DNA from: Caldinitratiruptor microaerophilus
GTDB taxonomy: Bacteria > Bacillota > Sulfobacillia > Symbiobacteriales > ZC4RG38
Assembly: GCF_025999835.1 (NCBI RefSeq)
Contig: NZ_AP025628.1
Span: 3,348,001 to 3,412,000 of the forward strand
Direction: 5' to 3'
DNA length: 64,000 nt
Shown here: positions 3,175 to 49,686 of the stretch, one piece after another
Layout of the letters: every line of letters starts with the position of its first letter
How positions within the stretch are numbered: position 1 is the stretch's first letter
Notes under the pieces: generated by a model
What the model was told of the DNA's origin: nothing
Databases searched by the model: none
Seen by the model: only the letters and a program-made list of their open reading frames with translations
Made by a program: the position numbers and the translations under genes

Positions 3175-3504
3175 CTACGGAGCATTTCCAAGCCCATTCT
3201 TGTTCCAGCGAGGACGTACGTAATAGCTTCCTCGACGGGTACCACGCAGTACCAACTCTCCGCGCTGATGCAGAAGAGCCTTTGCCTGGACAGACGAGAG
3301 CTGGCACAGCTCAGCAACCTCGCGGCGCGTGATTCGCCCGTGTGCCGCGCCATGTTGGAGCACCATCTGTTCTTGCTGTAGAGGCTCGAAGCCGCGAACC
3401 CGGACGTACGCCACGGCCGCGCCGCGCCCAGTGCGCTCGACCACCCCCGCGCGCTTGAAAAGGTACGAGGATGCCTCACCGGTCCCGACCGACGCCCTCC
3501 TCAA
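3175..3504 (-). pseudogene. Winged-helix (HTH) fragment, probably a remnant
   Basis: 109 codons from a TTG that overlaps the stop of the upstream ATPase gene. The recognisable part is RITRREVAELCQLSSVQAKALLH followed by GELVLRGTRRGSYYV. This resembles the C-terminal winged helix of putative ATP-binding/AlbA-type transcriptional regulators, with the preceding linker YVRVRGFEPLQQEQMVLQ. The large N-terminal ATP-binding part is missing, and the segment joining helix and wing is shorter than I would expect. Base composition is lower in G+C than its neighbours. I infer a decayed or horizontally acquired remnant; a small functional DNA-binding protein cannot be excluded. Confidence 0.5.
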
Positions 3505-5432
3505 CCCGAGTGTACCTGCAGGTCCGCCTGCACGTACCCGTCGCCCGCCCCCGGCGTCCGGAGGAGCCGCATGCCGTTCAAGATCACCAGGAGCACGCTC
3601 GCCTCGTGGATGAGCATCCCGCTGCCCAGGAAGACCACCCGGCCCAGGACGCCGGCCAGCAGCAGGACCACGACCGCCACGGCGAAGGCCACGTTCTGGC
3701 GGACCACGGCCAGGATCCGCCGGCTGAGCCCGATCGCGTACGGCACCATGTCCAGGCGGTCCGCCATGAGGGCGACGTCGGCGGCCTCCAATGCGGCCCG
3801 GGTCCCCGAGGCGCCCATGGCGATGCTCACGTCGGCGGTGGCGAGGGCCGGCGCGTCGTTGACCCCATCACCGACCATGGCCACCACGTGCCCCTGAGCC
3901 TGCAGGGACCGGATGGCGGCGACCTTCTCTTCCGGGAGGAGCCCTGCCCGGACCTCGTCGACCCCGAGCCGCCGGGCCACCCGCTCCGCCGCCGCGCGGT
4001 GGTCCCCGGTCAGCATCACGGTCCGCCGGACTCCGACCCGCCTGAGGGCCGCGACCAGGCCGGCGGCCTCAGGCCGGATCGGGTCGGTGATGCCGATGAT
4101 CCCTACCGGCACGCCACCGGCCGCCACCAGGGCGACGGTCTCACCCTCGGCCTCCCGGGCGGCCACCAGGGCCTCCTGGCCGGCCGTGAGGGCGATCCCG
4201 CGGGCGGCGAGGAGACGGCGGTTGCCGACGAGGATCTCCCCGGCCTCCCCCCGGGCCACGGCGCCGAGCCCGGGCTCCAGGGTCCATTCCGACGCTGGCT
4301 CGGGCTCGATGCCCATCGCCTTCGCATGGGCGAGGATCGCCGCCGCCAGGTGGTGCTCCGAGCGCTGCTCGGCCACCGCCGCGAGGGCGAGGACGCGGGT
4401 GGCGTCGCCGTTCAGCGGCACCACGGCCGTCACGCGGGGCTGTCCCATCGTCAGGGTGCCGGTCTTGTCGAAGGCCACCACGTCCACCTTGCCGATCCGC
4501 TCGAGCCGCTCGCCGCCCTTGATCAGGATCCCCTGGCGCGCGGCGCTCCCCAGGCCGGCCACCACGGCCACCGGGGCGGCCACCACCAGCGCGCCCGGGC
4601 AGCCGATGACCAGGAAGGTGAGGGCCAGTTCCACGTCCCGGGTCAGCAGGTAGAGCACGCCCGCCGCGGCCAGCACGGCCGGGGTGTACCAGCGGGCGAA
4701 GCGGTCCAGGAAACGCTGGACCTTGGGCTTCTGCTCCTGGGCCTCGGCGACGAGGTAGACGAGCCGGCTGAACGTCGTGTCCGGCCCGACGCGCTCCGCC
4801 ACGACCTCCAGGTAGCCGCCCCGGCTCACGCTACCGCCGAGCACCGGGTCGCCGGGGCCCACTTCCGCGGGCAGCGGCTCCCCGGTGAGGGCGGCGGTGT
4901 CGAGGGCGGCCCGGCCCGCCACGACGGTGCCGTCGACGGGGACCCGGTCGCCCGGCAGCACCACCACGGTGTCCCCGGGGCGGACGGCGGCGGCGTCGAC
5001 GACCTCGAGCGCCTCGCCGCGCCTCACCCGGGCGGTGCGGGGGAGGAGGTCGACCAGGGTCCGCAGCGCGGCCCGCGTGCGGGCAAGGGTCAGGCTCTCG
5101 AGGTAGCCCCCGAAGACGTAAAGGAAGGTGACCGCCGCCGCCTCCCACGTCTCCCGGATCCACAGCGCCCCCAGGGCGGCGACGCTGACCAGCAGCGGGA
5201 TGCTGAACTGCCCCGCCCGCAGCCGCCCCCACGCCTCGCGGGCGATGGGCGCGCCCGCGATCACGGCGGCGGCGGCCATGAGGCCGTCGTACAGGCCGGC
5301 TTGGGCGGCGGCGCCTGGGCTCACGAGCCGGACGGTCCAGGCGGCGGCGATGAGCGCCCCGGCAGCCAGCACGGTGAGCAGGTCGCCGTGGCGGGCCAGC
5401 CACCGGTGCAGCCTCTCGTGTCTGCAGGTCAT
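3501..5432 (-). CDS. P1B-type heavy-metal-transporting ATPase
   Basis: 643 residues, an integral membrane ATP-driven metal pump. Visible parts are N-terminal membrane helices (about residues 18-110), the actuator loop TGEPLP (183-188), and the metal-site helix with CPG at 278-280 (usual CPC/CPH/SPC). DKTGTLT follows with phospho-Asp 322, then GDGVNDAPALATADV. The nucleotide-site motif, normally SEHPLA, reads SEHHLA (359-363). There is no N-terminal HMA domain; the adjacent 75-residue HMA protein probably supplies it. Its ATG follows AAAGGAGGG. Cu(I), Zn or Cd are possible substrates; the CPG motif prevents a firm call. Probably cotranscribed with the HMA gene 82 nt upstream. Confidence 0.93.
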   Translation of the reverse strand: MTCRHERLHRWLARHGDLLTVLAAGALIAAAWTVRLVSPGAAAQAGLYDGLMAAAAVIAGAPIAREAWGRLRAGQFSIPLLVSVAALGALWIRETWEAAAVTFLYVFGGYLESLTLARTRAALRTLVDLLPRTARVRRGEALEVVDAAAVRPGDTVVVLPGDRVPVDGTVVAGRAALDTAALTGEPLPAEVGPGDPVLGGSVSRGGYLEVVAERVGPDTTFSRLVYLVAEAQEQKPKVQRFLDRFARWYTPAVLAAAGVLYLLTRDVELALTFLVIGCPGALVVAAPVAVVAGLGSAARQGILIKGGERLERIGKVDVVAFDKTGTLTMGQPRVTAVVPLNGDATRVLALAAVAEQRSEHHLAAAILAHAKAMGIEPEPASEWTLEPGLGAVARGEAGEILVGNRRLLAARGIALTAGQEALVAAREAEGETVALVAAGGVPVGIIGITDPIRPEAAGLVAALRRVGVRRTVMLTGDHRAAAERVARRLGVDEVRAGLLPEEKVAAIRSLQAQGHVVAMVGDGVNDAPALATADVSIAMGASGTRAALEAADVALMADRLDMVPYAIGLSRRILAVVRQNVAFAVAVVVLLLAGVLGRVVFLGSGMLIHEASVLLVILNGMRLLRTPGAGDGYVQADLQVHSG

Positions 5433-5514: not shown

Positions 5515-5742
5515 CTAGCTGCTGGGGCCCGGCAGGATCGCGGCCACCTCGAGGCCGAACTGGCGGACGAGCTCCCGGATGGCCTGTTCGGACAGCCGCC
5601 CTTCGTCGTACTCGACGTTCAGGGCGCCGGCCCCGAAGGCGACCCGCGCCGTCCGCATGCCGGGCAGCTTCTGCGCGGCCCTCTCAAGCTTGGCGGCGCA
5701 GTTCGGGCAGTTGAGGTTCCGCAGCATGATCATCTGGCGCAT
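5515..5742 (-). CDS. HMA-domain metallochaperone (CopZ-like)
   Basis: 75 residues, a stand-alone heavy-metal-associated domain. The metal site is NCPNCAAKLERA near residue 11 (CxxC, with the usual leading Met/Asn region MLRNLNCPNC). The beta-alpha-beta-beta-alpha-beta pattern continues through RTARVAFGAGALNVEY and EQAIRELVRQFGLEV. Small HMA proteins of this kind hand Cu(I) or Zn to P1B ATPases. Here it is the first gene ahead of a P1B ATPase that lacks its own HMA domain. ATG is preceded by AAGGAGGGG. An FNR-type palindrome lies 74-87 nt upstream. Confidence 0.9.
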   Translation of the reverse strand: MRQMIMLRNLNCPNCAAKLERAAQKLPGMRTARVAFGAGALNVEYDEGRLSEQAIRELVRQFGLEVAAILPGPSS

Positions 5743-5815
5743 GGGATCCCCTCCTTCCCCGGTCGGTACACCGGCCGTGCACCCTCATGATCGCCCGGGC
5801 AGGGGTGGCCGCGCC

Positions 5816-5829
5816 TTGACGCGCGTCAA
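5816..5829 (-). promoter_or_regulatory. FNR/DNR-type operator ahead of the HMA-ATPase operon
   Basis: The perfect palindrome TTGACGCGCGTCAA matches the FNR/DNR pattern TTGAC-N4-GTCAA. Reading leftward, a weak -10 (GATCAT, 5792-5787) ends 35.5 nt from the dyad centre, which places the box near -42.5, a class II activator position. A regulator with the matching recognition helix is encoded at 6230-6916. Site use is inferred. Confidence 0.6.
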
Positions 5830-6154
5830 TGGCGCGCGAAGGGCCGTCCGCAGCGGTGCCGGCCGGCGGCGGGCGGCCCGGTGGCGTGGGCGAAAGTGCG
5901 CTTCTCTTGAGGTGTGTACCCGGAGACGACATCGCCGATCACAAGGTGTTGCCGGCGGTAGGGTGCACCGATTTTGTCCCGGCGGCACCGCGACAGGTGG
6001 CACAGGAATTGTCCCGGTGAGGCTGCCAGAGCGCTTTCAACCGTCCCGGCACCCCGTCAAGGGCCCCTTGAGTAGACGGAAGACGCCCCGATCAGGACAT
6101 AACTACGGCCTTCTGTAAACCTTGGTGAGGCAAATGAGCTTGCCAGGATCGGTT

Positions 6155-6188
6155 TTGACCCAAGTACCCGCGGGGGTACATGGGTCAA
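6155..6188. repeat. 34-bp inverted repeat downstream of the FNR-type regulator gene
   Basis: Arms TTGACCCAAGTACCC and GGGTACATGGGTCAA pair over 15 positions with one mismatch around GCGG. It lies 42 nt past the regulator stop. It may act as a transcript-end hairpin (no T-run follows) or as a protein site, since its ends TTGAC/GTCAA resemble FNR half-sites at wrong spacing. Confidence 0.55.
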
Positions 6189-6229
6189 TACTTGTGCCGG
6201 CGGCTCCGGGGGCGGGAACCAAGACCGGG

Positions 6230-6916
6230 CTACCCCCCGGCGGCCCGGCGGAGCCCCTCCGGGTCGAGGACCACCACGGTGCGGGCGTCTGCCTGCCGGA
6301 TCAGCCCTCGCTCGGCCAGAGCCTTCAGCCGCCGGCTCAGGCTCTCCGGCGTCGTGCCCAGGCGAACCGCGATCTCCGCCCACGGCACCGGCACCCGCAG
6401 CCGGATCCCGTCGGGAACCCGGGTGCCGCCGGCCGCCATCCGCAGCAGTTCGGCGGCCAGCCGCTGGCCCACGTCCCGCAGGCCGAGGTCGGCGATGGTC
6501 TGCTCGGCGGCAGCGAGCCGCTGGGCGAGCACCTCCACGAGCCGCACCGCCACGTCGGAGTGTCTGCGGAGGATCGACTGGACCGCCTGCCGCGGGACCA
6601 GGCAGACGTCGGTGTCCTCGGCCGCCACGAGGTCGCCCTCACACCGGACGGGCGTGAACAGGGCCATCTCCCCCAGGAATTCGCCGGGCCCGAGGGCGCG
6701 CACGACCTGCTCCCGGCCGCTGCTGGTGGTGTACAGGAAGTTCAACCGCCCCCGGGCGACCACGACCAGGTGCTCGATCGGGTCGCCGGCAGCCAGCACG
6801 AGCTCCCCCTTGGCGTACCGCCGGTGGCGCATGGCCTCCCCCAGCTCTGCCAGTCCCGCGGCGGGCAGGACGCGGAAGATCGGCACGCCGGCGGCGCAGG
6901 ACGGGATCGTTTCCAC
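6230..6916 (-). CDS. FNR/DNR-type CRP-family transcription regulator
   Basis: 228 residues. An N-terminal cyclic-nucleotide-like sensor barrel (residues 12-120; GEFLGEMALFTP) is followed by a dimer helix and a winged helix. The recognition helix reads TTPESLSRRLKAL, carrying the E-xx-SR residues that in FNR/DNR proteins contact TTGAT/TTGAC half-sites. Only three Cys (in SCAAG, VRCEGD and DVCLV) are visible, so an FNR 4Fe-4S cluster of the E. coli type is unlikely; NO or redox sensing by heme (DNR-like) is possible. GTG start after GGGAGGT, 36 nt downstream of the small membrane protein, so it belongs to the leftward operon. Confidence 0.9.
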   Translation of the reverse strand: METIPSCAAGVPIFRVLPAAGLAELGEAMRHRRYAKGELVLAAGDPIEHLVVVARGRLNFLYTTSSGREQVVRALGPGEFLGEMALFTPVRCEGDLVAAEDTDVCLVPRQAVQSILRRHSDVAVRLVEVLAQRLAAAEQTIADLGLRDVGQRLAAELLRMAAGGTRVPDGIRLRVPVPWAEIAVRLGTTPESLSRRLKALAERGLIRQADARTVVVLDPEGLRRAAGG

Positions 6917-6952
6917 AGCACCACCTCCCGATCCGGGTGATCCTCCCGCCTG

Positions 6953-7291
6953 TCAACGGGTTCGCTGCAGCAGGGTCCGGATCCCCCCGTGGGTCTTCAG
7001 CCACAGCGCCAAGCCGAGGAGCAGGAGGCCGGTGACCCCGAGCGCCACCAGCAGGCCACGGCGCCGGCCCGCGCCTGTCACCAGGGCGATCGCCCCGATC
7101 AGCGCCGCCCCGGCGCCGCACCGGCCGCAGGTCGCGCACGAGCCCGGACACGCCTGGGCGGCCTGCGCCTGCAGGCTCATGCCCGCCGACCCGGCCAGGG
7201 CGAGCACGGCGGCAACCAGGCCCTGGAGGGTGCCGGTGCCGACCCTCCTCCAGGCGGCCCGGAGCCGGGCGAGAAAGGCGGCCTCATGCAT
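6953..7291 (-). CDS. Small Cys-rich membrane protein of the nos accessory operon
   Basis: 112 residues from the ATG that overlaps the polyferredoxin stop by 8 nt (MHEAAFLARLRAAWRRVG). It has an N-terminal hydrophobic helix (GTLQGLVAAVLALAGSAGM), then the motif CPGSCATCGRC near residues 47-57 and two closely spaced hydrophobic segments (GAALIGAIALV; GLLVALGVTGLLLLGLAL). The four-Cys motif placed next to the membrane could hold a metal or disulfides. No family is firmly recognised. Position between a NapH-like protein and the regulator suggests a role in electron transfer or copper handling for N2O reduction. Confidence 0.75.
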   Translation of the reverse strand: MHEAAFLARLRAAWRRVGTGTLQGLVAAVLALAGSAGMSLQAQAAQACPGSCATCGRCGAGAALIGAIALVTGAGRRRGLLVALGVTGLLLLGLALWLKTHGGIRTLLQRTR

Positions 7292-8201
7292 CGGCGGCAG
7301 CCGGCTCCAGGGCCGGCCGGTCAAGGACGGCGGGTTCGATGGCCGGCCCGCGGCCGTAGGCCAGCGCGTCATGCCGGCACACCTCGATGCAGTCCTTACA
7401 CAGGATGCACTGATGCCGGTTGATCCTCACGCCGCCACGGTCGGGCACGGGCGAGATCGCCCGCATGGGGCAGGCCGCGACGCAGCGGTGGCAGCTCTTG
7501 CAGTTGCCGGGGAAGTACTTGAGCTTCCAGGTGAAGCCGAACCGTGCCCCGATCGAGTGGACAAGGCTTTGCAGGGCCCCGACGGGGCACGCGAAGTTGC
7601 ACCAGCCCCGCCCGCCCTTCATGAACAGGCCGAACGCCACGAGCCACAGCAGGGTCACCAGGATGTAGGTGGAGCTGAGGGCCGTGAAGCTTCCGGTCAC
7701 CCCGAGGACCATGAGCTCGAACGTCTTGTAGTTGCAGAAGGCGCACCCGATGCCGCCGGCCAGGAAGGGCGTGATCACGTATCCGGCCAGGAAGCCGTAC
7801 CGGATGGCCGTGACGTTCACCTTGTCCAGAACGTCCATCTTGAACCGATCGGGCACGAGCCGGCTCAGGTACTCCGGGAGGGCGCCGGCGGCGCAGATCC
7901 AGCCGCAGAAGAGGGGGCCCATGAGCAGCGCGAGGCCCAGGATGACGAAGAAGCCGACTGTGCGCAGGCCGATCTCGCCGAACAGGTTCCCCCACTGGGC
8001 GGGGTTGGTCAGCCAGTTGATCTGCATGCGCAGGCAGAGGTCGCTGATGCTCCCCGCCGTCCGGGTCCCGGTGGCCCAGCCCCAGAGCCGCGTGAACAGG
8101 GCGAACGGGGCGTAGAACATCAGCAGGCCGGCGACGTAGCTCAGCAGCCGCCGGCCGTCGTGCCGGCGTGTGGTCGTGACGAAGGACGGTAGCCTGACCA
8201 T
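7284..8201 (-). CDS. NapH/NosR-like membrane polyferredoxin
   Basis: 305 residues. Several membrane helices (about residues 20-45, 78-110, 135-155, 165-200) carry the family's paired motifs GWICAAGALPEYL and CNFACPVGALQSL. Two 4Fe-4S sites follow in the C-terminal part: CKSCHRCVAACP and CILCKDCIEVC. NapH-type proteins take electrons from menaquinol and pass them to periplasmic or extracytoplasmic reductases, and they replace NosR in atypical nos systems. ATG overlaps the previous stop (TGATG), so it is translationally coupled to the secreted protein upstream. I infer it feeds the NosZ system encoded 5 kb away. Confidence 0.9.
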   Translation of the reverse strand: MVRLPSFVTTTRRHDGRRLLSYVAGLLMFYAPFALFTRLWGWATGTRTAGSISDLCLRMQINWLTNPAQWGNLFGEIGLRTVGFFVILGLALLMGPLFCGWICAAGALPEYLSRLVPDRFKMDVLDKVNVTAIRYGFLAGYVITPFLAGGIGCAFCNYKTFELMVLGVTGSFTALSSTYILVTLLWLVAFGLFMKGGRGWCNFACPVGALQSLVHSIGARFGFTWKLKYFPGNCKSCHRCVAACPMRAISPVPDRGGVRINRHQCILCKDCIEVCRHDALAYGRGPAIEPAVLDRPALEPAAADA

Positions 8202-8776
8202 CAGTGGTGGTGCCCCCCGTGTGCGCCCTGGCCGGCCCCTTCCATTTCGTGCGTTCCGGCGGGGGCGAAACTCGAGTTCACGATGCGAACGGGCACGAAG
8301 CCCAGCTCACGGCCGGTATCGGCGTCGTAGACCGCCAGGCGTCCGTCGCAGATCACGGGCTTGTCGCGCTCGGCGCGGGGCAGGGACACGAAGAGGTTCA
8401 GGCTGAACTTGAACCCGGGCGGGATCGGGTCGGCCACGGTCCGGGTGGCCTCCCTCCACCCGGTGTGGTTCACGCTCCAGGACTGGCGAAGCGGACAGCC
8501 CTCCAGCGCAAGGCGGATCCTGGGCGCCTCCTGGCCCTTGTTGACCACCGAGACCGCCATGCGGATGGAGCCCGGCTGCAGGATCCGCTTGAGGTAGCCT
8601 TGCTGCCGCAGGTCGACGGTGACGGGCTTCGGGTTCGCCGACGGGAAGCTGAGCGTGAAGTGCCGCTCCTCGAGAGCCCGGCTCACCTTCGCCCAGGACG
8701 CCACGGCGAAGGGAGCGGCAAAGGCGACGAGGGAGAAGACGGACGTGGCCACGAATCGGGCCATGGGTTTGCGCAA
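8201..8776 (-). CDS. Secreted/membrane-anchored protein with His/Met-rich tail, unknown function
   Basis: 191 residues from a TTG 8 nt after GGGAGGGG; an internal ATG four codons later is the alternative. The N-terminus (RKPMARFVATSVFSLVAFAAPFAVAS) is a signal peptide or anchor. The body looks beta-rich, with two lone Cys (EGCPL, VICDG). The last 20 residues include HEMEG, then GAHGGHHH, a plausible Cu or other metal ligand set. It is the first gene of the operon with the NapH-like protein, a Cys-rich membrane protein and an FNR-type regulator. An extracytoplasmic metal-donor or electron-transfer role is inferred, and no family is assigned. Confidence 0.75.
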   Translation of the reverse strand: MRKPMARFVATSVFSLVAFAAPFAVASWAKVSRALEERHFTLSFPSANPKPVTVDLRQQGYLKRILQPGSIRMAVSVVNKGQEAPRIRLALEGCPLRQSWSVNHTGWREATRTVADPIPPGFKFSLNLFVSLPRAERDKPVICDGRLAVYDADTGRELGFVPVRIVNSSFAPAGTHEMEGAGQGAHGGHHH

Positions 8777-8881
8777 GCAGACACCCCTCCCGCTGTGTAA
8801 GGCGCCGCGCCGGCGTGCGGCGGAGGCCGCGGTGCTGGGCGCCATTGTACCGGGGGGTGTCCAGCGGAAGAAAGGATCCGG

Positions 8882-8924
8882 TCGAACGATTATATTTTCG
8901 TATCCGATAAGTTCGAGAATCGGA
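8882..8924 (-). promoter_or_regulatory. Promoter and dyad operator of the leftward nos accessory operon
   Basis: Reading leftward there is a consensus -10, TATAAT (8894-8889), but no consensus -35 (CTCGAA at 17 nt). An inverted repeat TCCGAT-N10-ATCGGA (8924-8903) covers the -35 zone. Strong -10 plus a dyad at -35 suggests control by a bound regulator. A 105-nt leader would precede the TTG start. Confidence 0.6.
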
Positions 8925-9025
8925 ATTTCGGTGTAGGGCTTGGCCTCGCCTTCAGGTTGTCTTCAGCCGGGCGTGTCACTCTCGCTCCAGCGTGATGACA
9001 AAGCCGGTGAGAGGGGGCGCGGGAT

Positions 9026-9499
9026 GTGGTCAAGTCCCACCTGATGTTGGTCCATTTCCCGATCGCGCTGTTGTTCGTTGCTGTGGTCTTCGAGGTCATC
9101 GGGCACCTGCGCGGTCGGGAGGACTTCCAGAAAGCCGGACTCTACACGCTTCTGGCCGGTTTCGCCGGAGCCGTGCTGGCTGCGTTCACCGGGAAGGTCG
9201 CGGAGGAGAGCCTGGAAAGGTTTCTGACCCGGCGACCGGGCGGTCCCGCCCTGCTCGAGGCGCACGAGATCGCGGCCTACGCGACGGTCGGGATCTTTGC
9301 CGCGATCCTTCTCTGGCGCACTCTCGGCCGTCGCACCCTGCGGGGGTCGGTGCTCGTCGCCTACCTCCTGCTGGCGGCCGTGGGACTCGGAAGCCTCGGC
9401 GTGACCGGCTTCCTGGGCGGCGAGATGGCCCACCCGCAGGGACGGGGCGCACAGGCGCAGGCCGCCGCTGCGATGGGTCGCGACGCGGACGGGGACTGA
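9026..9499 (+). CDS. DUF2231-family membrane protein
   Basis: 157 residues beginning MVKSHLMLVHFPIALLFVAVVFEV at a GTG, with AGGGGG 8 nt upstream. Four membrane helices are visible (about residues 8-25, 38-58, 82-102, 110-130), with conserved His in the first helix (LMLVHFPIAL) and EAHEIAAYAT before the third. These are typical of DUF2231 proteins, which are thought to bind heme or take part in membrane redox chemistry. The tail (HPQGRGAQAQ) is hydrophilic. It is transcribed away from the NapH-like operon and may share its control region. Confidence 0.8.
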   Translation: MVKSHLMLVHFPIALLFVAVVFEVIGHLRGREDFQKAGLYTLLAGFAGAVLAAFTGKVAEESLERFLTRRPGGPALLEAHEIAAYATVGIFAAILLWRTLGRRTLRGSVLVAYLLLAAVGLGSLGVTGFLGGEMAHPQGRGAQAQAAAAMGRDADGD

Positions 9500-9624
9500 G
9501 AGCGCCTGGCCACCCTGGCGGTCCCGGAGGGGCACCCGCTCCGGCTGCGGTTCGCAGCCCGCACGGCCGGACCGTGTTGAGGCTTTTTTCCTTACAGGAT
9601 GCCTCCCCGAAAGCGTTCGTCACG

Positions 9625-9667
9625 GTGATGCACATCACTACCTGCCAGGACGGGCCGGATGTACAAT
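9625..9667 (+). promoter_or_regulatory. FNR-type box and -10 ahead of the NarL-type two-component genes
   Basis: GTGATGCACATCAC (9625-9638) carries the FNR core TGAT-N4-ATCA. The -10 TACAAT (9662-9667) ends 35.5 nt from the dyad centre, so the box sits near -42.5 where a class II activator would replace the poor -35 (TACCTG). Confidence 0.62.
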
Positions 9668-9740
9668 ACTTTCGGGCTAGACCGGGTGCGCCGACCGGCT
9701 TGCCGGGACGGCGACGTAACCCCGGCCCCGGTGACCGCGG

Positions 9741-11474
9741 ATGGATGTGTATCGCCGGCTCCGGACCCTGCGGTGGGTGGCCTTCGCCGTCCCGACCGCG
9801 GTGCTGGCGCTCGTCGTCTGCCTCTGGCGCAACCTCTTCCCCACCACGCCGTGGGCGGCGCTCGTGGCGGAAGTGGGGAGCATCGCCGCCGGATCGTACG
9901 TTTTCTCGATGTGGCTGTTCCGCTTGCTGAGAACCCTGCAGGCCGACATCCTCGACAAGAACTCGCAACTCGAGGCCCTCAACGAGGCAGCGATCAGCAT
10001 CTCGTCGGAACTCTCGCTGGATGCCGTGTTGCAGCAGGTGGTCGAGCGCGCCCGCCGGGTTGCGCGGGCGCGCTTTGCCGCGCTCCGGGTCCTGCCCGTC
10101 GACGGGGAGCCCGCCCATTTCCTCTACGCCGGCATCACTCCGGAGGAGCGGGCCCGGATGGGCCCGGAGCCCTGCGGGCGCGGCGTCCTGGGTGTGATCC
10201 AGGAGACCGGACGGGCCCTGCGGCTGAAGGAGATCCGGAGCCACCCCGCCTCGGTGGGCTTCCCGCCGGGGCATCCGGACATGCACACGTTCCTCGGCGT
10301 CCCGATCCTGTCACGGCGGACGGTGCTCGGCGTCCTCTACCTCACGGAGAAGGAGGGGGCCCCCGAGTTCACGGCGGCGGACGAGGAGGCGGTCACCCTG
10401 CTCGCGAACCAGGCGGCGGTGGCCATCCAGAACGCCCGCCTGTTCGAGAAGGAGCGGCGCACGGCCCAGTACCTGAAGCGGCTCCTGCAGACCTCTCAAG
10501 ACGCCATCGTCGTCCTCGCCTGTGACGGCACCGTCCGGTTCTGGAACCAGGGGGCGGAGTCGCTCTACGGTTACCCGGCCGCCGAAGCGATCGGAAGGGT
10601 GCTTCCGATGGTCCCGGTCCCGGACCGGCCCGCCGTCCTGGAGCGCCTCAGGGCCGTGACGCAGGGCGAGGCGGTTCCGAGCCAGGAGGCGTACCACCAG
10701 CGCAAGGACGGTTCGCTGGTGCCGGTCCTGGCTGCGCTTTCGCCGCTGCCGGCAGCTTGTGGGGACGAGGGCGGGGTCCTTCTCACCGTCAAGGATCTGA
10801 CCGCTCAGAAGCGCCTCGAGGCGCAGCGCCGGCGCCTGGCCCTCCTGGAGGAACGGGAACGGATCGGCATGGACCTCCATGACGGCAGCATCCAGTCCCT
10901 GTACGCGGTCGGCCTCACGCTCGAGACCGCGCGCCGCCTGCTGCCGCAAGGGGCGGAGGAGGCGGCGGTCCGGCTCGCGCAGGCCATCGGACAGCTGAAC
11001 GCCGTCATCCAGGACCTGCGCCGCTACATCCTGGGCCAGGGATCCCCCTGCGGGGCAGAGCGCCCCGTCGAGGAACTGCTGGTCTCGATGGCGCGACGGC
11101 TGGAGGAGCAGGACGCCCTGCACGTCACCGTCGACCTGCAGCCCGGGGTAAGCCACCTCCTGCCCCCCGACGTGTCCCCCCACGTGGCGCACATCCTCGG
11201 GGAGGCCGTCTCGAACGTGCTACGGCACAGCCAGGCCCGCCACGTGGCGTTCGGGCTGCGGCGGGAAGGGGAAGCCATCGTCCTCACCGTGCGGGACGAC
11301 GGCCGTGGGTTCGACGTGGCGGCGGCGCAGGAAGACGGACATTTCGGTCTCCGGAACATGCAGGTGCGGGCGGCTCTCCTCGGGGGCGAGTGCCGGGTGC
11401 GTTCCGCGCCCGGCAGCGGCACGGTCGTCGAAGTCCGGGTGCCGGTGGAGGTGGAGGTGGTGGGCCGTGTCTGA
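9741..11474 (+). CDS. NarL-family sensor histidine kinase (TM-GAF-PAS-HisKA_3)
   Basis: 577 residues. Two N-terminal membrane helices (12-30, 40-62) have almost no external loop. A GAF domain (about 80-235) and a PAS domain (243-355; RFWNQGAESLYGYPAAEAIG) follow. The HisKA_3 dimerisation helix has ERERIGMDLHDG with phospho-His 380. The ATPase domain has EAVSNVLRHSQ and DDGRGF. This kinase type works with LuxR/NarL-class response regulators, here the overlapping gene downstream. The lack of an external sensor loop points to sensing through GAF or PAS, perhaps redox or NO. An FNR-type promoter lies just upstream. Confidence 0.93.
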   Translation: MDVYRRLRTLRWVAFAVPTAVLALVVCLWRNLFPTTPWAALVAEVGSIAAGSYVFSMWLFRLLRTLQADILDKNSQLEALNEAAISISSELSLDAVLQQVVERARRVARARFAALRVLPVDGEPAHFLYAGITPEERARMGPEPCGRGVLGVIQETGRALRLKEIRSHPASVGFPPGHPDMHTFLGVPILSRRTVLGVLYLTEKEGAPEFTAADEEAVTLLANQAAVAIQNARLFEKERRTAQYLKRLLQTSQDAIVVLACDGTVRFWNQGAESLYGYPAAEAIGRVLPMVPVPDRPAVLERLRAVTQGEAVPSQEAYHQRKDGSLVPVLAALSPLPAACGDEGGVLLTVKDLTAQKRLEAQRRRLALLEERERIGMDLHDGSIQSLYAVGLTLETARRLLPQGAEEAAVRLAQAIGQLNAVIQDLRRYILGQGSPCGAERPVEELLVSMARRLEEQDALHVTVDLQPGVSHLLPPDVSPHVAHILGEAVSNVLRHSQARHVAFGLRREGEAIVLTVRDDGRGFDVAAAQEDGHFGLRNMQVRAALLGGECRVRSAPGSGTVVEVRVPVEVEVVGRV

Positions 11475-12192
11475 GTCGGAAGGCGGCCGGGTTCGCGTGC
11501 TGATCGTGGACGACCACGCGGTGGTCCGCGCCGGGCTGCGGGCGCTGGTCGAGATGGAAGGGCGCTTTCAGGTGGTGGGCGAGGCCGGCACCGCCCAGGA
11601 GGCGGTCGAGCGGGCGCTGGCCGACCCGCCTGACGTGGTGCTGATGGACGTCCGCCTCCCCGGGGAGAGTGGCATCGAGGCGTGCCGGGAGATTCGCGCC
11701 CGCCTTCCCGGTACCCGGGTCGTGATGCTCACCTCGTACCCGGACGAACAGGCGGTCGTCGCCTCCGTGCTGGCGGGCGCTTCCGGCTACCTTCTCAAGG
11801 ACATCGACCCGCGGGGCCTGCGGGACGCGCTCGAGATCGTGGCGCGGGGCGGGTCGCTCCTGAGCCCCGACCTGGTGACCCGGGTGCTGGCCGGAGTGCG
11901 CCGGCAGGCGGAGTCCGGGCCGGGCCCGGACGCCATCGAGCGGCTCACCGCCCAGGAGCGGCAGATCCTCACCCTGATCGCGGAGGGGAAGACCAACCGG
12001 GAGATCGGTGAGGTCCTCTACCTGAGCGAGCACACGGTCAAGAACTACATCAGCCGCCTGTTCGAGAAGCTCGGCCTCAGCCGGCGCTCCGAGGCGGCCG
12101 CCTATCTGGCGCGGTATGAACGCCGGGTCGGGCTCGGTCCGGCAGCCGGCGGGAGTACTGCGGGGGACGGGAACGGAGTCGGGGTGCGCTAG
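11467..12192 (+). CDS. NarL/FixJ-family response regulator
   Basis: 241 residues. GTG lies inside the end of the kinase gene (8-nt overlap) behind GGAGGTGG. The receiver domain has the acidic pair in LIVDDHAVVRAGL, phospho-Asp 61 (VVLMDVRLPG), Thr in VVMLTSYP and Lys in YLLKD. The C-terminal LuxR-type helix-turn-helix reads LTAQERQILTLIAEGK, then LSEHTVKNYISRLFEKL. It should bind DNA when phosphorylated by the adjacent kinase. The nos cluster is the likely target because of position; that is inference. Confidence 0.94.
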   Translation: MSESEGGRVRVLIVDDHAVVRAGLRALVEMEGRFQVVGEAGTAQEAVERALADPPDVVLMDVRLPGESGIEACREIRARLPGTRVVMLTSYPDEQAVVASVLAGASGYLLKDIDPRGLRDALEIVARGGSLLSPDLVTRVLAGVRRQAESGPGPDAIERLTAQERQILTLIAEGKTNREIGEVLYLSEHTVKNYISRLFEKLGLSRRSEAAAYLARYERRVGLGPAAGGSTAGDGNGVGVR

Positions 12193-12358: not shown

Positions 12359-12403
12359 CTTCCGGTACGCTCAAGGTAGCCACGAAGCAAGGGGGCGGTG
12401 CAG

Positions 12404-12817
12404 GTGGCCTCCCCCTCGACCGGCATCCGGGTCCTGATCGTCGACCCCCACCCCGGCGTCCGGACGGCCCTCGCGCAGGCTCTGGGAACCGCGCCGGGCA
12501 TCGGGGAGGTAAGGGCGGTCGGCGGCGCCGCCGAGGCGCTGGCCGCGGTCGGGACCTGGCGGCCCGACGTGGTGCTGCTCGAGACCAAGCGGCGGGGCGG
12601 GGACGGCCTGGACCTCCTGCGCCGCCTCGCGCGTGGGGGTGAGGGTCCGCCGGTTCTCGTGGTGACCTCCTATCCGGACGCACTCGAACGCCTGGAGGTG
12701 ATGCTCGCGGGAGGCAGCGGGTACCTGCTCAAGGACGTGGCCACCGAAGTCCTCGTCGCGGCGGTGCTGGGCGCCCACCGCACGAGGGAGACGGAACAAG
12801 GGAGGGATGACCGGTGA
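12404..12817 (+). CDS. Receiver-only pseudo-response regulator, coupled to nosZ
   Basis: 137 residues from the GTG 9 nt after AGGGGG; a GTG two codons earlier is less well spaced. It is a CheY-like receiver with no output domain. The phospho-acceptor Asp is replaced by Glu 60 (VVLLETKRRGG), and one residue of the acidic pocket is lost (IVDPHP instead of DD). The switch Thr (VVTSYP) and Lys (YLLKDV) are kept. Asp-to-Glu often mimics the phosphorylated state. Its sequence echoes the NarL-type regulator just upstream, suggesting duplication and loss of the DNA-binding part. Its stop overlaps the nosZ start (GTGA). Confidence 0.85.
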   Translation: MASPSTGIRVLIVDPHPGVRTALAQALGTAPGIGEVRAVGGAAEALAAVGTWRPDVVLLETKRRGGDGLDLLRRLARGGEGPPVLVVTSYPDALERLEVMLAGGSGYLLKDVATEVLVAAVLGAHRTRETEQGRDDR

Positions 12818-14811
12818 GACAAGGGAGAAAGCGCCTGGCCGCCCTGGCGGCGAGCATGGCCGTCCTGCTCGTCCTGGCCGGATGTACGCCGGGCAAGGGC
12901 GGCGGCGCGGGCGGCGCCGGCCCGAGCGGTCTCGGCGAGTCGGCGGATCAGATCATCAAGGCGCGCGGTCTCACCCCGGACGACGTGACGGCCGCCCTCA
13001 AGACCTACGTGCCGTCGGGCAAGTACGACGAGTTCGTGATGTTCTCGTCGGGCGGCCACTCGGGCCAGGTTCTGGTCATCGGGGTGCCGTCCATGCGGAT
13101 CCTGAAGATCATCGGGGTCTTCACGCCGGAGCCCTGGCAGGGGTGGGGGTACAGCGACGAGACCCGGGAGATCCTCAAGCAGGGGTCCATCGACGGCAAG
13201 GAGATCACCTGGGCCGACACGCATCACCCGGCGCTGAGTGAGACCAATGGAGAGTACGACGGCCAGTGGCTGTTCATCAACGACAAGTCGGGGGGCCGGG
13301 TGGCCGTCATTGACCTCCGGGACTTCGAGACCAAGCAGATCGTGAAGAACCCGCTCTTCATCAACGACCACGGTTCGACGTTCGTGACCCCCAACACGGA
13401 GTACGTGATCGAGGGTTCCCAGTACTCGGTGCCCCTCGGCTGGGAGTACGCACCACTGGAGCAGTACAAGGAGAAGTACCGTGGCCTCCTGACCCTTTAC
13501 AAGTTCGATCGTGAGAAGGGCCGCATCGACCTGGAGAAGTCCTTCTCGATCGAACTGCCGCCGTACTGGCAGGACCTGGCCGACGCCGGCAAGGGCGAAA
13601 GCGAAGGCTGGCTGTTCCTGAACTCCCTGAACGCGGAGATGGCCACCGGCTCCGGCGTGCAGGGGCAGCCGTTCTTCGAGGCCGGCACCGCAGGTCGCGA
13701 CATGGACTACCTCCACATCGTCAACTGGAAGAAGGCGGAAGAACTCGTCCGGGCGGGCAAGTTCGAGACGATCAAGGGGATGCGGGTCATCCGGCTGGAC
13801 ACGGCCGCCAAGGAGGGCGTGCTCTTCCTGGCCCCCGAGCCCAAGAGCCCGCACGGCGTCGACGTCGCCCCCCGCGGCGACTACATCGTGGTCTCCGGGA
13901 AGCTGGACCCGCACGTGACGATCTACAGCTTCAAAAAGATCCAGGAGAACATCGCCAAGGGCAACTTCGACCGGGACGAGTTCGGCGTGCCCGTGCTCAA
14001 GTTCCAGGACGTCATGGAGGCGCAGGTCGAACTCGGTCTCGGACCGCTCCACACCCAGTTCGACGACAAGGGCTACGCCTACACGAGCCTCTTCCTGGAC
14101 AGCGCCGTGGCCCGCTGGACGCTGGGGCCGCCGTACAACAACGAGGGCGGCTGGAAGCTGGTCGGTAAGATCCCCGTCCACTACAACGTGGGCCACATCG
14201 CGATGCCGGAAGGCGACACGGCCAAGCCGGCTGGCAAGTACCTGGTCTCCCTCAACAAGTGGTCCATCGACCGCTTCCTGAACGTCGGTCCCCTGCTCCC
14301 GCAGAACTTCCAGCTGATCGACGTGAGCCAGCCCGGCGACAAGATGCAGCTCCTGTACGACATGCCCATCGGCATGGCGGAGCCCCACTACGCCCAGATC
14401 ATCCGCGCCGACCGGCTGAAGGCCTGGGAGGTCTACCCGGAGGTCGGCTGGAACCCGGGCACGCAGTCCAAGGATCCCAACGCCGTGGAGCCCGGCAAGG
14501 AGCGGGTCGAGCGGCACGGGAACGAAGTGCACGTCTACATGACCGCGATCCGGAGCCACTACACGCCGGAGAAGGTCCAGGTCAAGAAGGGCGACAAGGT
14601 GATCTGGCACATCACCAACATCGAGCGGGCGCGCGACGCGACGCACGGCTTCGCCCTGCCGGGCTACAACATCCAGCTCAGCCTCGAGCCGGGGGAGACG
14701 CAGACGTTCTCGTTCGTCGCGGACCGTTCGGGCACGTTCACGTACTACTGCACGGAGTTCTGCTCGGCGCTGCACCTCGAGATGGCCGGATACTTCCTCG
14801 TGGAGCCCTAG
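12814..14811 (+). CDS. nosZ: Nitrous oxide reductase, lipoprotein (clade II) type
   Basis: 665 residues. It reduces N2O to N2 outside the membrane, the last step of denitrification. The N-terminus is a Sec-type lipoprotein signal with lipobox LAGC (Cys 24), not a Tat twin-Arg signal, which marks the atypical clade. A seven-bladed propeller carries the CuZ histidines: DTHH (137, 138), DHG (186), PHGVD (347), PLHTQ (413), a sixth His in HYNVGH (461 or 456) and PHYAQ (525). The C-terminal cupredoxin has CuA ligands His 611, Cys 646, Cys 650, His 654 and Met 657 (CTEFCSALHLEM). All needed ligands are present, so it should be functional. GTG start behind AGGGAGGG. Confidence 0.97.
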   Translation: MRQGRKRLAALAASMAVLLVLAGCTPGKGGGAGGAGPSGLGESADQIIKARGLTPDDVTAALKTYVPSGKYDEFVMFSSGGHSGQVLVIGVPSMRILKIIGVFTPEPWQGWGYSDETREILKQGSIDGKEITWADTHHPALSETNGEYDGQWLFINDKSGGRVAVIDLRDFETKQIVKNPLFINDHGSTFVTPNTEYVIEGSQYSVPLGWEYAPLEQYKEKYRGLLTLYKFDREKGRIDLEKSFSIELPPYWQDLADAGKGESEGWLFLNSLNAEMATGSGVQGQPFFEAGTAGRDMDYLHIVNWKKAEELVRAGKFETIKGMRVIRLDTAAKEGVLFLAPEPKSPHGVDVAPRGDYIVVSGKLDPHVTIYSFKKIQENIAKGNFDRDEFGVPVLKFQDVMEAQVELGLGPLHTQFDDKGYAYTSLFLDSAVARWTLGPPYNNEGGWKLVGKIPVHYNVGHIAMPEGDTAKPAGKYLVSLNKWSIDRFLNVGPLLPQNFQLIDVSQPGDKMQLLYDMPIGMAEPHYAQIIRADRLKAWEVYPEVGWNPGTQSKDPNAVEPGKERVERHGNEVHVYMTAIRSHYTPEKVQVKKGDKVIWHITNIERARDATHGFALPGYNIQLSLEPGETQTFSFVADRSGTFTYYCTEFCSALHLEMAGYFLVEP

Positions 14812-48408: not shown

Positions 48409-49686
48409 GTGGCGCTCATCGACACCGTGCGGGCGTCCCTGCGAACGCCCGGGCTGCGGCGGCGCATCCTGATCACCATCGCGATGCTCCTGGTCTTTCG
48501 CGTGGGCGCCCACATCCCGGTGCCCGGGGTGCGGGCCGACGTGATCGAGCAGCTGTTCCGGGGCGGCGGTGGCCTTCTCGGGCTCATCGATGTGATCTCC
48601 GGTGGCGCGTTCCGCACGTTCTCCATCTTCGCGATGTCCGTCATCCCCTACATCAACGCGTCGATCATCATGCAGCTGCTCACGGTGGTCATCCCGCGGC
48701 TCGAGGAGCTGCAGAAAGAGGGCGAGGAGGGGCGCCGCAAGATCCAGGAGTACGTGCGGTACGGGACCGTCGTGTTGGCCGTGGTGCAGGGCTTCGGCAC
48801 GGCCGTGTTCGTCCGGAACCAGGGTGCGCTCGTGTCGGGGTCGTGGGGGTGGGTCGCGCTCATCGTGCTCTCCCTCACCGCCGGCACTGCCTTCCTCATG
48901 TGGGTGGGCGAGCAGATCACCGAGCACGGGATCGGTAACGGGATCTCGCTCCTGATCTTCGCCAGCATCGTCAGCCGGGTCCCGGCCGCGCTGGTGGGGA
49001 TGGCGGAGCTGGTGCGGACCGGCGCCCTGAACGTGCTTCAGGTGCTCGCCGTGATCGTCCTGGCCATCCTCATCGTGGCGTTCACGGTGGTGGTCACGGA
49101 GGGCGTCCGCAAGGTGCCGGTGCAGTACGCCAAGCGGGTGGTCGGCCGGCGGCTCTACGGCGGCCAGTCCACGCACCTGCCCATGAAGGTGAACCAGGCC
49201 GGCGTGATCCCGGTCATCTTCGCCCAGTCGCTTCTGGTCTTCCCGGTGACCGTCGCGAACTTCTTCTCGCAGACGCACCCGGTCGTGATGTTCATCAACC
49301 GCTGGCTCGGGTTCCAGAGCCCGATCTACCTGCTGCTGTTCGGGCTGCTGACCTTCCTGTTCACGTTCTTCTATACCGAGATCACCTTCCAGCCGGACCA
49401 GGTGGCGGACAACATCAAGAAGGCCGGCGGCTTCATCCCCGGCCTGCGCCCCGGCCGGCCCACGGCGGAGTACCTTGCCCGGGTGTCCAGCCGCATCACC
49501 TTCGTGGGCGCGCTGTTCCTGGCCGCCATCACCCTCCTCCCGTACGGCATCATCGCCATCACGGGGGTCCAGCAGGCGTACATCGGCGGGACGTCCCTCC
49601 TCATCGTGGTGGGCGTGGCCATCGAGACCATGCGCCAGGTGGAGGCGCACCTCGTGCTGCGGCAGTACCAGGGCTTCATGAAGTGA
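48409..49686 (+). CDS. secY: Protein translocase subunit SecY
   Basis: 425 residues with ten membrane helices, the Sec channel. Markers are DVISGGAFRTFSIFAMSVIP, PYINASIIMQLL, GIGNGISLLIFASIV and the cytoplasmic loop TEGVRKVPVQYAKRVVGRR. GTG start one base after the rplO stop, with coupling likely. Confidence 0.99.
   Translation: MALIDTVRASLRTPGLRRRILITIAMLLVFRVGAHIPVPGVRADVIEQLFRGGGGLLGLIDVISGGAFRTFSIFAMSVIPYINASIIMQLLTVVIPRLEELQKEGEEGRRKIQEYVRYGTVVLAVVQGFGTAVFVRNQGALVSGSWGWVALIVLSLTAGTAFLMWVGEQITEHGIGNGISLLIFASIVSRVPAALVGMAELVRTGALNVLQVLAVIVLAILIVAFTVVVTEGVRKVPVQYAKRVVGRRLYGGQSTHLPMKVNQAGVIPVIFAQSLLVFPVTVANFFSQTHPVVMFINRWLGFQSPIYLLLFGLLTFLFTFFYTEITFQPDQVADNIKKAGGFIPGLRPGRPTAEYLARVSSRITFVGALFLAAITLLPYGIIAITGVQQAYIGGTSLLIVVGVAIETMRQVEAHLVLRQYQGFMK

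Follow-up and report, generated by a model that had tools for sequence, protein, structure and literature searches.

We analysed a window of 64,000 nucleotides (nt) from the genome of Caldinitratiruptor microaerophilus (contig NZ_AP025628.1, positions 3,348,001 to 3,412,000), with a guanine-plus-cytosine (GC) content of 70.6%. Our focus was on two palindromes that resemble FNR-type operators, box 1 and box 2, and on the gene of a CRP/FNR-family regulator located between them. On the minus strand, reading down from 8764, the order is a small protein ending in GAHGGHHH, a NapH-like membrane 4Fe-4S protein, a further small protein, the regulator, box 1, an HMA protein and a P1B-ATPase. On the plus strand, a DUF2231 protein is followed by box 2, a GAF-PAS histidine kinase, a NarL-type regulator, a receiver-only open reading frame, a Sec-type nosZ and then more nos-type genes. 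Beyond the window, the genome was examined by pattern search and in selected stretches. The relevant features are as follows:

3501–5432, minus strand: P1B-type heavy-metal ATPase, CPG motif in M4, HEAS near the C-terminus (TIGR01525/TIGR01512, above cut-off)
5515–5742, minus strand: HMA-domain metallochaperone-like protein, CxxC, 75 amino acids (PF00403)
5792–5787, minus strand: candidate -10 GATCAT, 23 nt from box 1, predicted start about 5780
5816–5829, minus strand: box 1, TTGACGCGCGTCAA, centre 5822.5, putative TTGA-type operator ahead of the HMA/P1B genes
6230–6916, minus strand: CRP/FNR-family regulator, 228 amino acids, C7 and C105 invariant
6332–6355, minus strand: codons of the recognition helix segment TTPESLSR, with P at 180 and E at 181 (CRP numbering)
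7284–8201, minus strand: NapH-like membrane 4Fe-4S protein, upstream of the regulator
9625–9638, plus strand: box 2, GTGATGCACATCAC, centre 9631.5, putative GTGA-type operator ahead of the sensor kinase
9662–9667, plus strand: candidate -10 TACAAT, 23 nt from box 2, predicted start about 9674
9741–11474, plus strand: sensor histidine kinase, GAF-PAS-HisKA_3-HATPase
11488–12192, plus strand: NarL/FixJ-type response regulator, start codon uncertain (11488 or 11497)
12398–12817, plus strand: receiver-only response-regulator-like open reading frame, overlapping the nosZ start
12814–14811, plus strand: nosZ, Sec-dependent nitrous-oxide reductase (TIGR04246, 909.9 bits)

The two palindromes and the two -10 hexamers are indeed present where a sequence-only reading of this DNA had placed them, and at both promoters the box centre lies 35.5 nt from the end of the -10, as that reading had measured. 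If the -10 spans -12 to -7, this distance puts the centre at about -42.5; the gap between box and -10 is 23 nt at both sites, and the canonical -41.5 corresponds to 22 nt. The same reading saw no good -35, and we found no -35-like hexamer 16–18 nt upstream of either -10. TACAAT occurs only once on the plus strand within the 64 kilobases. The TTGACG of box 1 was considered as an ordinary -35 and rejected, as no -10 was found 17 nt downstream. With a centre near -41.5, a poor -35 and a conserved gap of 22–23 nt to the -10, both predicted promoters resemble class II CRP/FNR-dependent promoters, and their sequence supports an activator architecture of the class II type at both sites. Palindromes of the form KTGAYNNNNRTCAM number three in the window, compared with 0.45 expected, and at least three were obtained in none of 100 shuffles. 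The third member of this class, GTGATGTTCATCAA, is located at 49285–49298.

The regulator encoded between the boxes combines a cNMP-type sensor barrel (PF00027, E 6e-21) with a Crp-type helix-turn-helix (PF13545, E 3e-16), which places it in the CRP/FNR superfamily. Its predicted fold is that of an ordinary CRP/FNR protein, matching GlxR, Mycobacterium tuberculosis CRP, DNR and HcpR at Z 16–18, with a full-length root-mean-square deviation that is high because the domains hinge differently. The recognition helix, LGTTPESLSRR, is of the E-xx-SR type that had been proposed for it, with P-E at 180/181. Orthologues with 61–71% identity were detected in five relatives. The only cysteines are C7, C92 and C105, and C7 and C105 are invariant in seven aligned proteins; C7 is the less constant of the pair, being absent or unaligned in the Arthrobacter and Paeniglutamicibacter proteins. 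The regulator shares with FNR proper, the [4Fe-4S] protein of the Escherichia coli type, a TTGA-reading E-xx-SR helix, in keeping with its linked TTGAY-N4-RTCAA sites, but lacks its four cysteine ligands. It probably switches through the C7/C105 pair, by thiol redox, metal or Fe-S chemistry, and low oxygen or nitric oxide (NO) would be a plausible signal.

For testing box 1, 80 loci were taken from a named collection by their regulator alone. These span Bacillota and Actinomycetota, including Symbiobacteriaceae, Fermentithermobacillaceae, Erysipelothrix, Clostridiaceae, Tessaracoccus, Arthrobacter and Paeniglutamicibacter. HMA/P1B genes were present in 16 of the loci, and in 13 of these a TTGAY-N4-RTCAA palindrome precedes them. 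Bases upstream of HMA/P1B genes make up 1.2% of the 80 loci, yet hold 15 of the 21 TTGAYN4RTCAA sites (binomial P ~1e-24; as with any P value here, the significance is overstated, since related genomes are not independent), and the reversed pattern, used as a control, did not occur at all. Among 20 pump-type promoters, 15 have a -10 with at least four matches at 22–23 nt, compared with 1.7 in shuffles, and none of 5000 shuffles equalled this count. This set of 20 was picked by the palindrome, which makes its TTGA/TCAA columns circular; the -10 result and the upstream position in the 80 loci are not. In four relatives (G002, G006, G012 and G034) and the more distant G019, the regulator and HMA/P1B genes occur together on one stretch, and the palindrome precedes these genes in every case; a fifth relative with a regulator orthologue (G005) has neither the genes nor the palindrome. 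The regulators themselves follow the same division: those adjacent to a pump keep C105 and have P, Q or K before E-xx-SR (the helix is not covered in L093), and most of those not adjacent to one have R-E and lack C105. The exception, L112, has a P1B-ATPase of another type. Overall, this phylogenetic footprint supports box 1 as a conserved operator of the adjacent regulator, which would act through it on the HMA/P1B-ATPase operon.

In G034, one further box of the TTGA type (L035:9989-10002) separates a hemerythrin-like gene from the regulator and has GATGAT at 22 nt in the direction of the former; it is a hint pointing to oxygen or NO as the signal. In the C. microaerophilus genome, a wider TTGA regulon was not found: the remaining TTGAY-N4-RTCAA sites are mostly intragenic or have no gene nearby, except for one at genome position 2,844,545. 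There, TTGACTTTTGTCAA (L064:6546-6559), with TACGTT at 22 nt, stands ahead of a membrane-protein operon that includes a UbiA-like gene. It adjoins a CRP/FNR paralogue with several N-terminal cysteines and an LETAVR helix.

Box 2 appears to belong elsewhere. The genome contains 64 KTGAYNNNNRTCAM palindromes, many of them intragenic. In the 126 flanks of 63 of the genome's own palindromes, TANNNT appeared nine times at an offset of 22 and 0–2 times at other offsets. GTGA sites with a TANNNT -10 at 22 nt, allowing one mismatch, numbered 14 in the genome, compared with one in the control. Such an arrangement, GTGAY-N4-RTCAC with TANNNT at 22 nt, precedes nirK, the copper nitrite reductase (TIGR02376, above cut-off). 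Other genes behind GTGA sites encode a NorB-type NO reductase, a DUF2249 protein, two proteins of the iron–sulfur (FeS) assembly type, one of them Mrp-like, a radical SAM protein and a cupin, as well as a molybdopterin oxidoreductase, formate-dehydrogenase-like proteins and membrane proteins without a Pfam match. Box 2 is an exact match to GTGAY-N4-RTCAC in front of the kinase gene beside nosZ, with TACAAT one base off the spacing of the regulon. In relatives, the GTGA and -10 arrangement is located ahead of DUF2249, hemerythrin-like, thioredoxin-like, SufB-like and multicopper-type genes (named by eye). The excess of GTGA sites over controls is also seen in relatives that lack a window-type regulator at E 1e-20: 8 v 1 in G001, 7 v 0 in G003, 10 v 0 in G004 and 17 v 1 in G038, and likewise in G013. 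The sequence of box 2 would fit membership in a GTGA denitrification regulon rather than in that of the window regulator.

These results divide two expectations of the sequence-only reading. It had the regulator activating both metal handling and the two-component pair: the box 1 footprint favours the former, and the GTGA half-sites of box 2, the helix without R180 and the GTGA regulon in relatives without the regulator speak against the latter. It had also proposed, as a check, enrichment of the motif upstream of anaerobic genes, which this genome displays for the GTGA motif and not for the TTGA motif.

Five clear CRP/FNR proteins are encoded in the genome. According to the published recognition code of the family, R180 goes with G at position 3, and Ser or Pro at 180 goes with TTGACnnnnGTCAA (PMC1274295). 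Since R180 reads G in this code, box 2 fits a paralogue with an R-E helix, and there are three of these, at genome positions 210,942 (SRETVTR), 2,302,651 (SREVVSR) and 444,939. The best candidate reader is the first, which spans 210,942-211,619 and has one cysteine. Its orthologues of about 50% identity come from the six nearest relatives, genomes with the GTGA excess, and more distant relatives of this protein adjoin GTGA sites in G013, G017, G019 and G023; in G019 the related regulator has a GTGA site ahead of its own gene. GTGA sites outnumbered controls by 206 to 46 in the 29 genomes with a relative of this paralogue and by 40 to 25 in the 12 without one (sums made by hand).

Taken together, we assign a probability of roughly 0.8 to the reading that the two class II-type activator promoters come from two different CRP/FNR-family regulons, with the window regulator reading box 1 and an R-E-type paralogue, best represented by 210,942, reading box 2, so that the kinase pair would be part of the denitrification regulon. 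Several observations weigh against it. The gap at box 2 is 23 nt and that of the remaining GTGA regulon is 22 nt. No orthologous kinase promoter was found for footprinting box 2, and a palindrome scan around nosZ of the nearest relative, G005, gave none. KTGAY..RTCAM also occurs in the coding sequence of this GC-rich genome and makes lone sites weak, and the association of box 1 with the pump genes would also be compatible with another TTGA-reading protein or with repression. The second R-type paralogue could also be the one that reads box 2: 2,302,651 adjoins a GTGA-like site, GTGACTCCAGTTAC, with TACCAT at 22 nt, ahead of a formate-dehydrogenase-like operon. We consider this version of the two-regulon scheme rather unlikely, given the orthologues of 210,942 in the relatives with GTGA excess and the GTGA sites beside its more distant relatives.

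That the window regulator binds both boxes and jointly activates metal handling and the two-component pair would account for the gap that the boxes share and for the position of its gene between them, and some FNR-family proteins do accept either G or T as the first base. We nevertheless regard it as improbable, because the promoters beside the regulator's relatives are TTGA-type pump promoters, the helix lacks R180, the GTGA regulon exists where the regulator does not, and this genome has many GTGA promoter sites and one TTGA cassette site. Chance is less likely still. Degenerate palindromes do arise by chance, and 34 of 60 palindromes in the genome are intragenic, many of them GTGA; however, promoters that were ordinary or read by other factors would leave the peak at offset 22, the conservation of box 1 across phyla and the lack of a -35 at both promoters unexplained.

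Under the two-regulon reading, the window regulator, once switched on, would bind TTGAC-N4-GTCAA as a dimer about -42.5 from the start and bring RNA polymerase to a promoter that lacks a -35, so that the HMA protein and the P1B metal pump are produced. The R-E-helix paralogue, probably 210,942-211,619, would turn on nirK, the NorB-type NO reductase, DUF2249 and the FeS-assembly genes; box 2 would extend this control to the sensor-kinase/regulator pair beside nosZ.

The window regulator has counterparts among described systems. In Lactobacillus casei, FLP operates a cysteine-pair switch, a possible parallel to C7/C105. Two cysteines in place of four are common among FNR-like regulators of the FLP/FlpA/FlpB group in lactic acid bacteria (PMC5039431), a list of metal-homeostasis regulons includes FlpA (PMC3616900), and work cited in PMC4229599 links FlpA/FlpB to zinc uptake and oxidative stress. 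C7 and C105 are conserved in the window regulator, and its likeness to this group is one of description and not of sequence comparison; operator and targets differ as far as known, the window regulator being linked to an HMA protein and a CPG-type P1B pump. HcpR1 of delta-proteobacteria and cyanobacteria, with Ser or Pro at 180, reads TTGACnnnnGTCAA (PMC1274295), and box 1 and the window regulator fall in the same motif and helix class, pairing a helix without R180 with TTGACnnnnGTCAA sites; HcpR controls hcp and frdX, whereas the conserved linked target here is the HMA/P1B pump. The GTGA regulon, in turn, recalls that of Bacillus Fnr (consensus TGTGANNNNNNTCACA; PMC8151001, from Reents 2006) in its half-sites and its anaerobic and nitrogen-oxide genes, and a YwiC-like gene in G006, assigned by eye, has a GTGA-type site. 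The 210,942 paralogue has one cysteine, and a cluster of the Bacillus Fnr type is therefore unlikely in it.

A membrane ferredoxin, an HMA-bearing P1B-ATPase and an FNR-type box also share one neighbourhood in fixGHIS/ccoGHIS, which is under FixK/FNR boxes, and the window brings the same elements together. CcoI-type pumps are copper pumps with CPC, whereas the window pump has CPG. Beside the other cassettes, BLAST at 1e-3 found no ferredoxin gene. The small protein at 8201–8764 that adjoins the NapH-like protein, the one ending in GAHGGHHH, has no Pfam or NCBIfam match. The divergent intergenic region at 8764–9026 contains an inverted repeat of the CCGAT/ATCGG type at about 8905–8925, and no operator of the TTGA or GTGA type was found in it.

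The pump has the E1-E2 ATPase domain, DKTGT and a CPx motif in M4 that define P1B-ATPases. It passes the cut-off of TIGR01512 (cadmium-type) and fails that of the copper type. In all cassette pumps with M4 covered, the motif is CPG and not CPC, SPC or TPC, and CPC is present in another of this genome's pumps; CPG pumps are thus possibly a separate P1B subgroup. A literature search, in which subscription papers were mostly out of reach, returned nothing relevant on a CPG-type P1B pump or on an FNR-type regulator beside one. We tentatively suggest, at somewhat less than even odds, that the regulator, HMA protein and CPG pump make up a metal-export cassette that is shared across phyla and has not been described before. 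In it, an FNR-family protein with two cysteines would use C7/C105 to sense redox, NO or metal and would then turn on pumps of a separate P1B subgroup, perhaps with an unusual choice of metal.

Overall, the analysis separates two look-alike regulatory circuits and provides a list of sites for each. It names a regulator–pump unit conserved in Bacillota and Actinomycetota, and it proposes a denitrification regulon in a nosZ-carrying Gram-positive bacterium, of which the kinase adjacent to nosZ would be a likely member.

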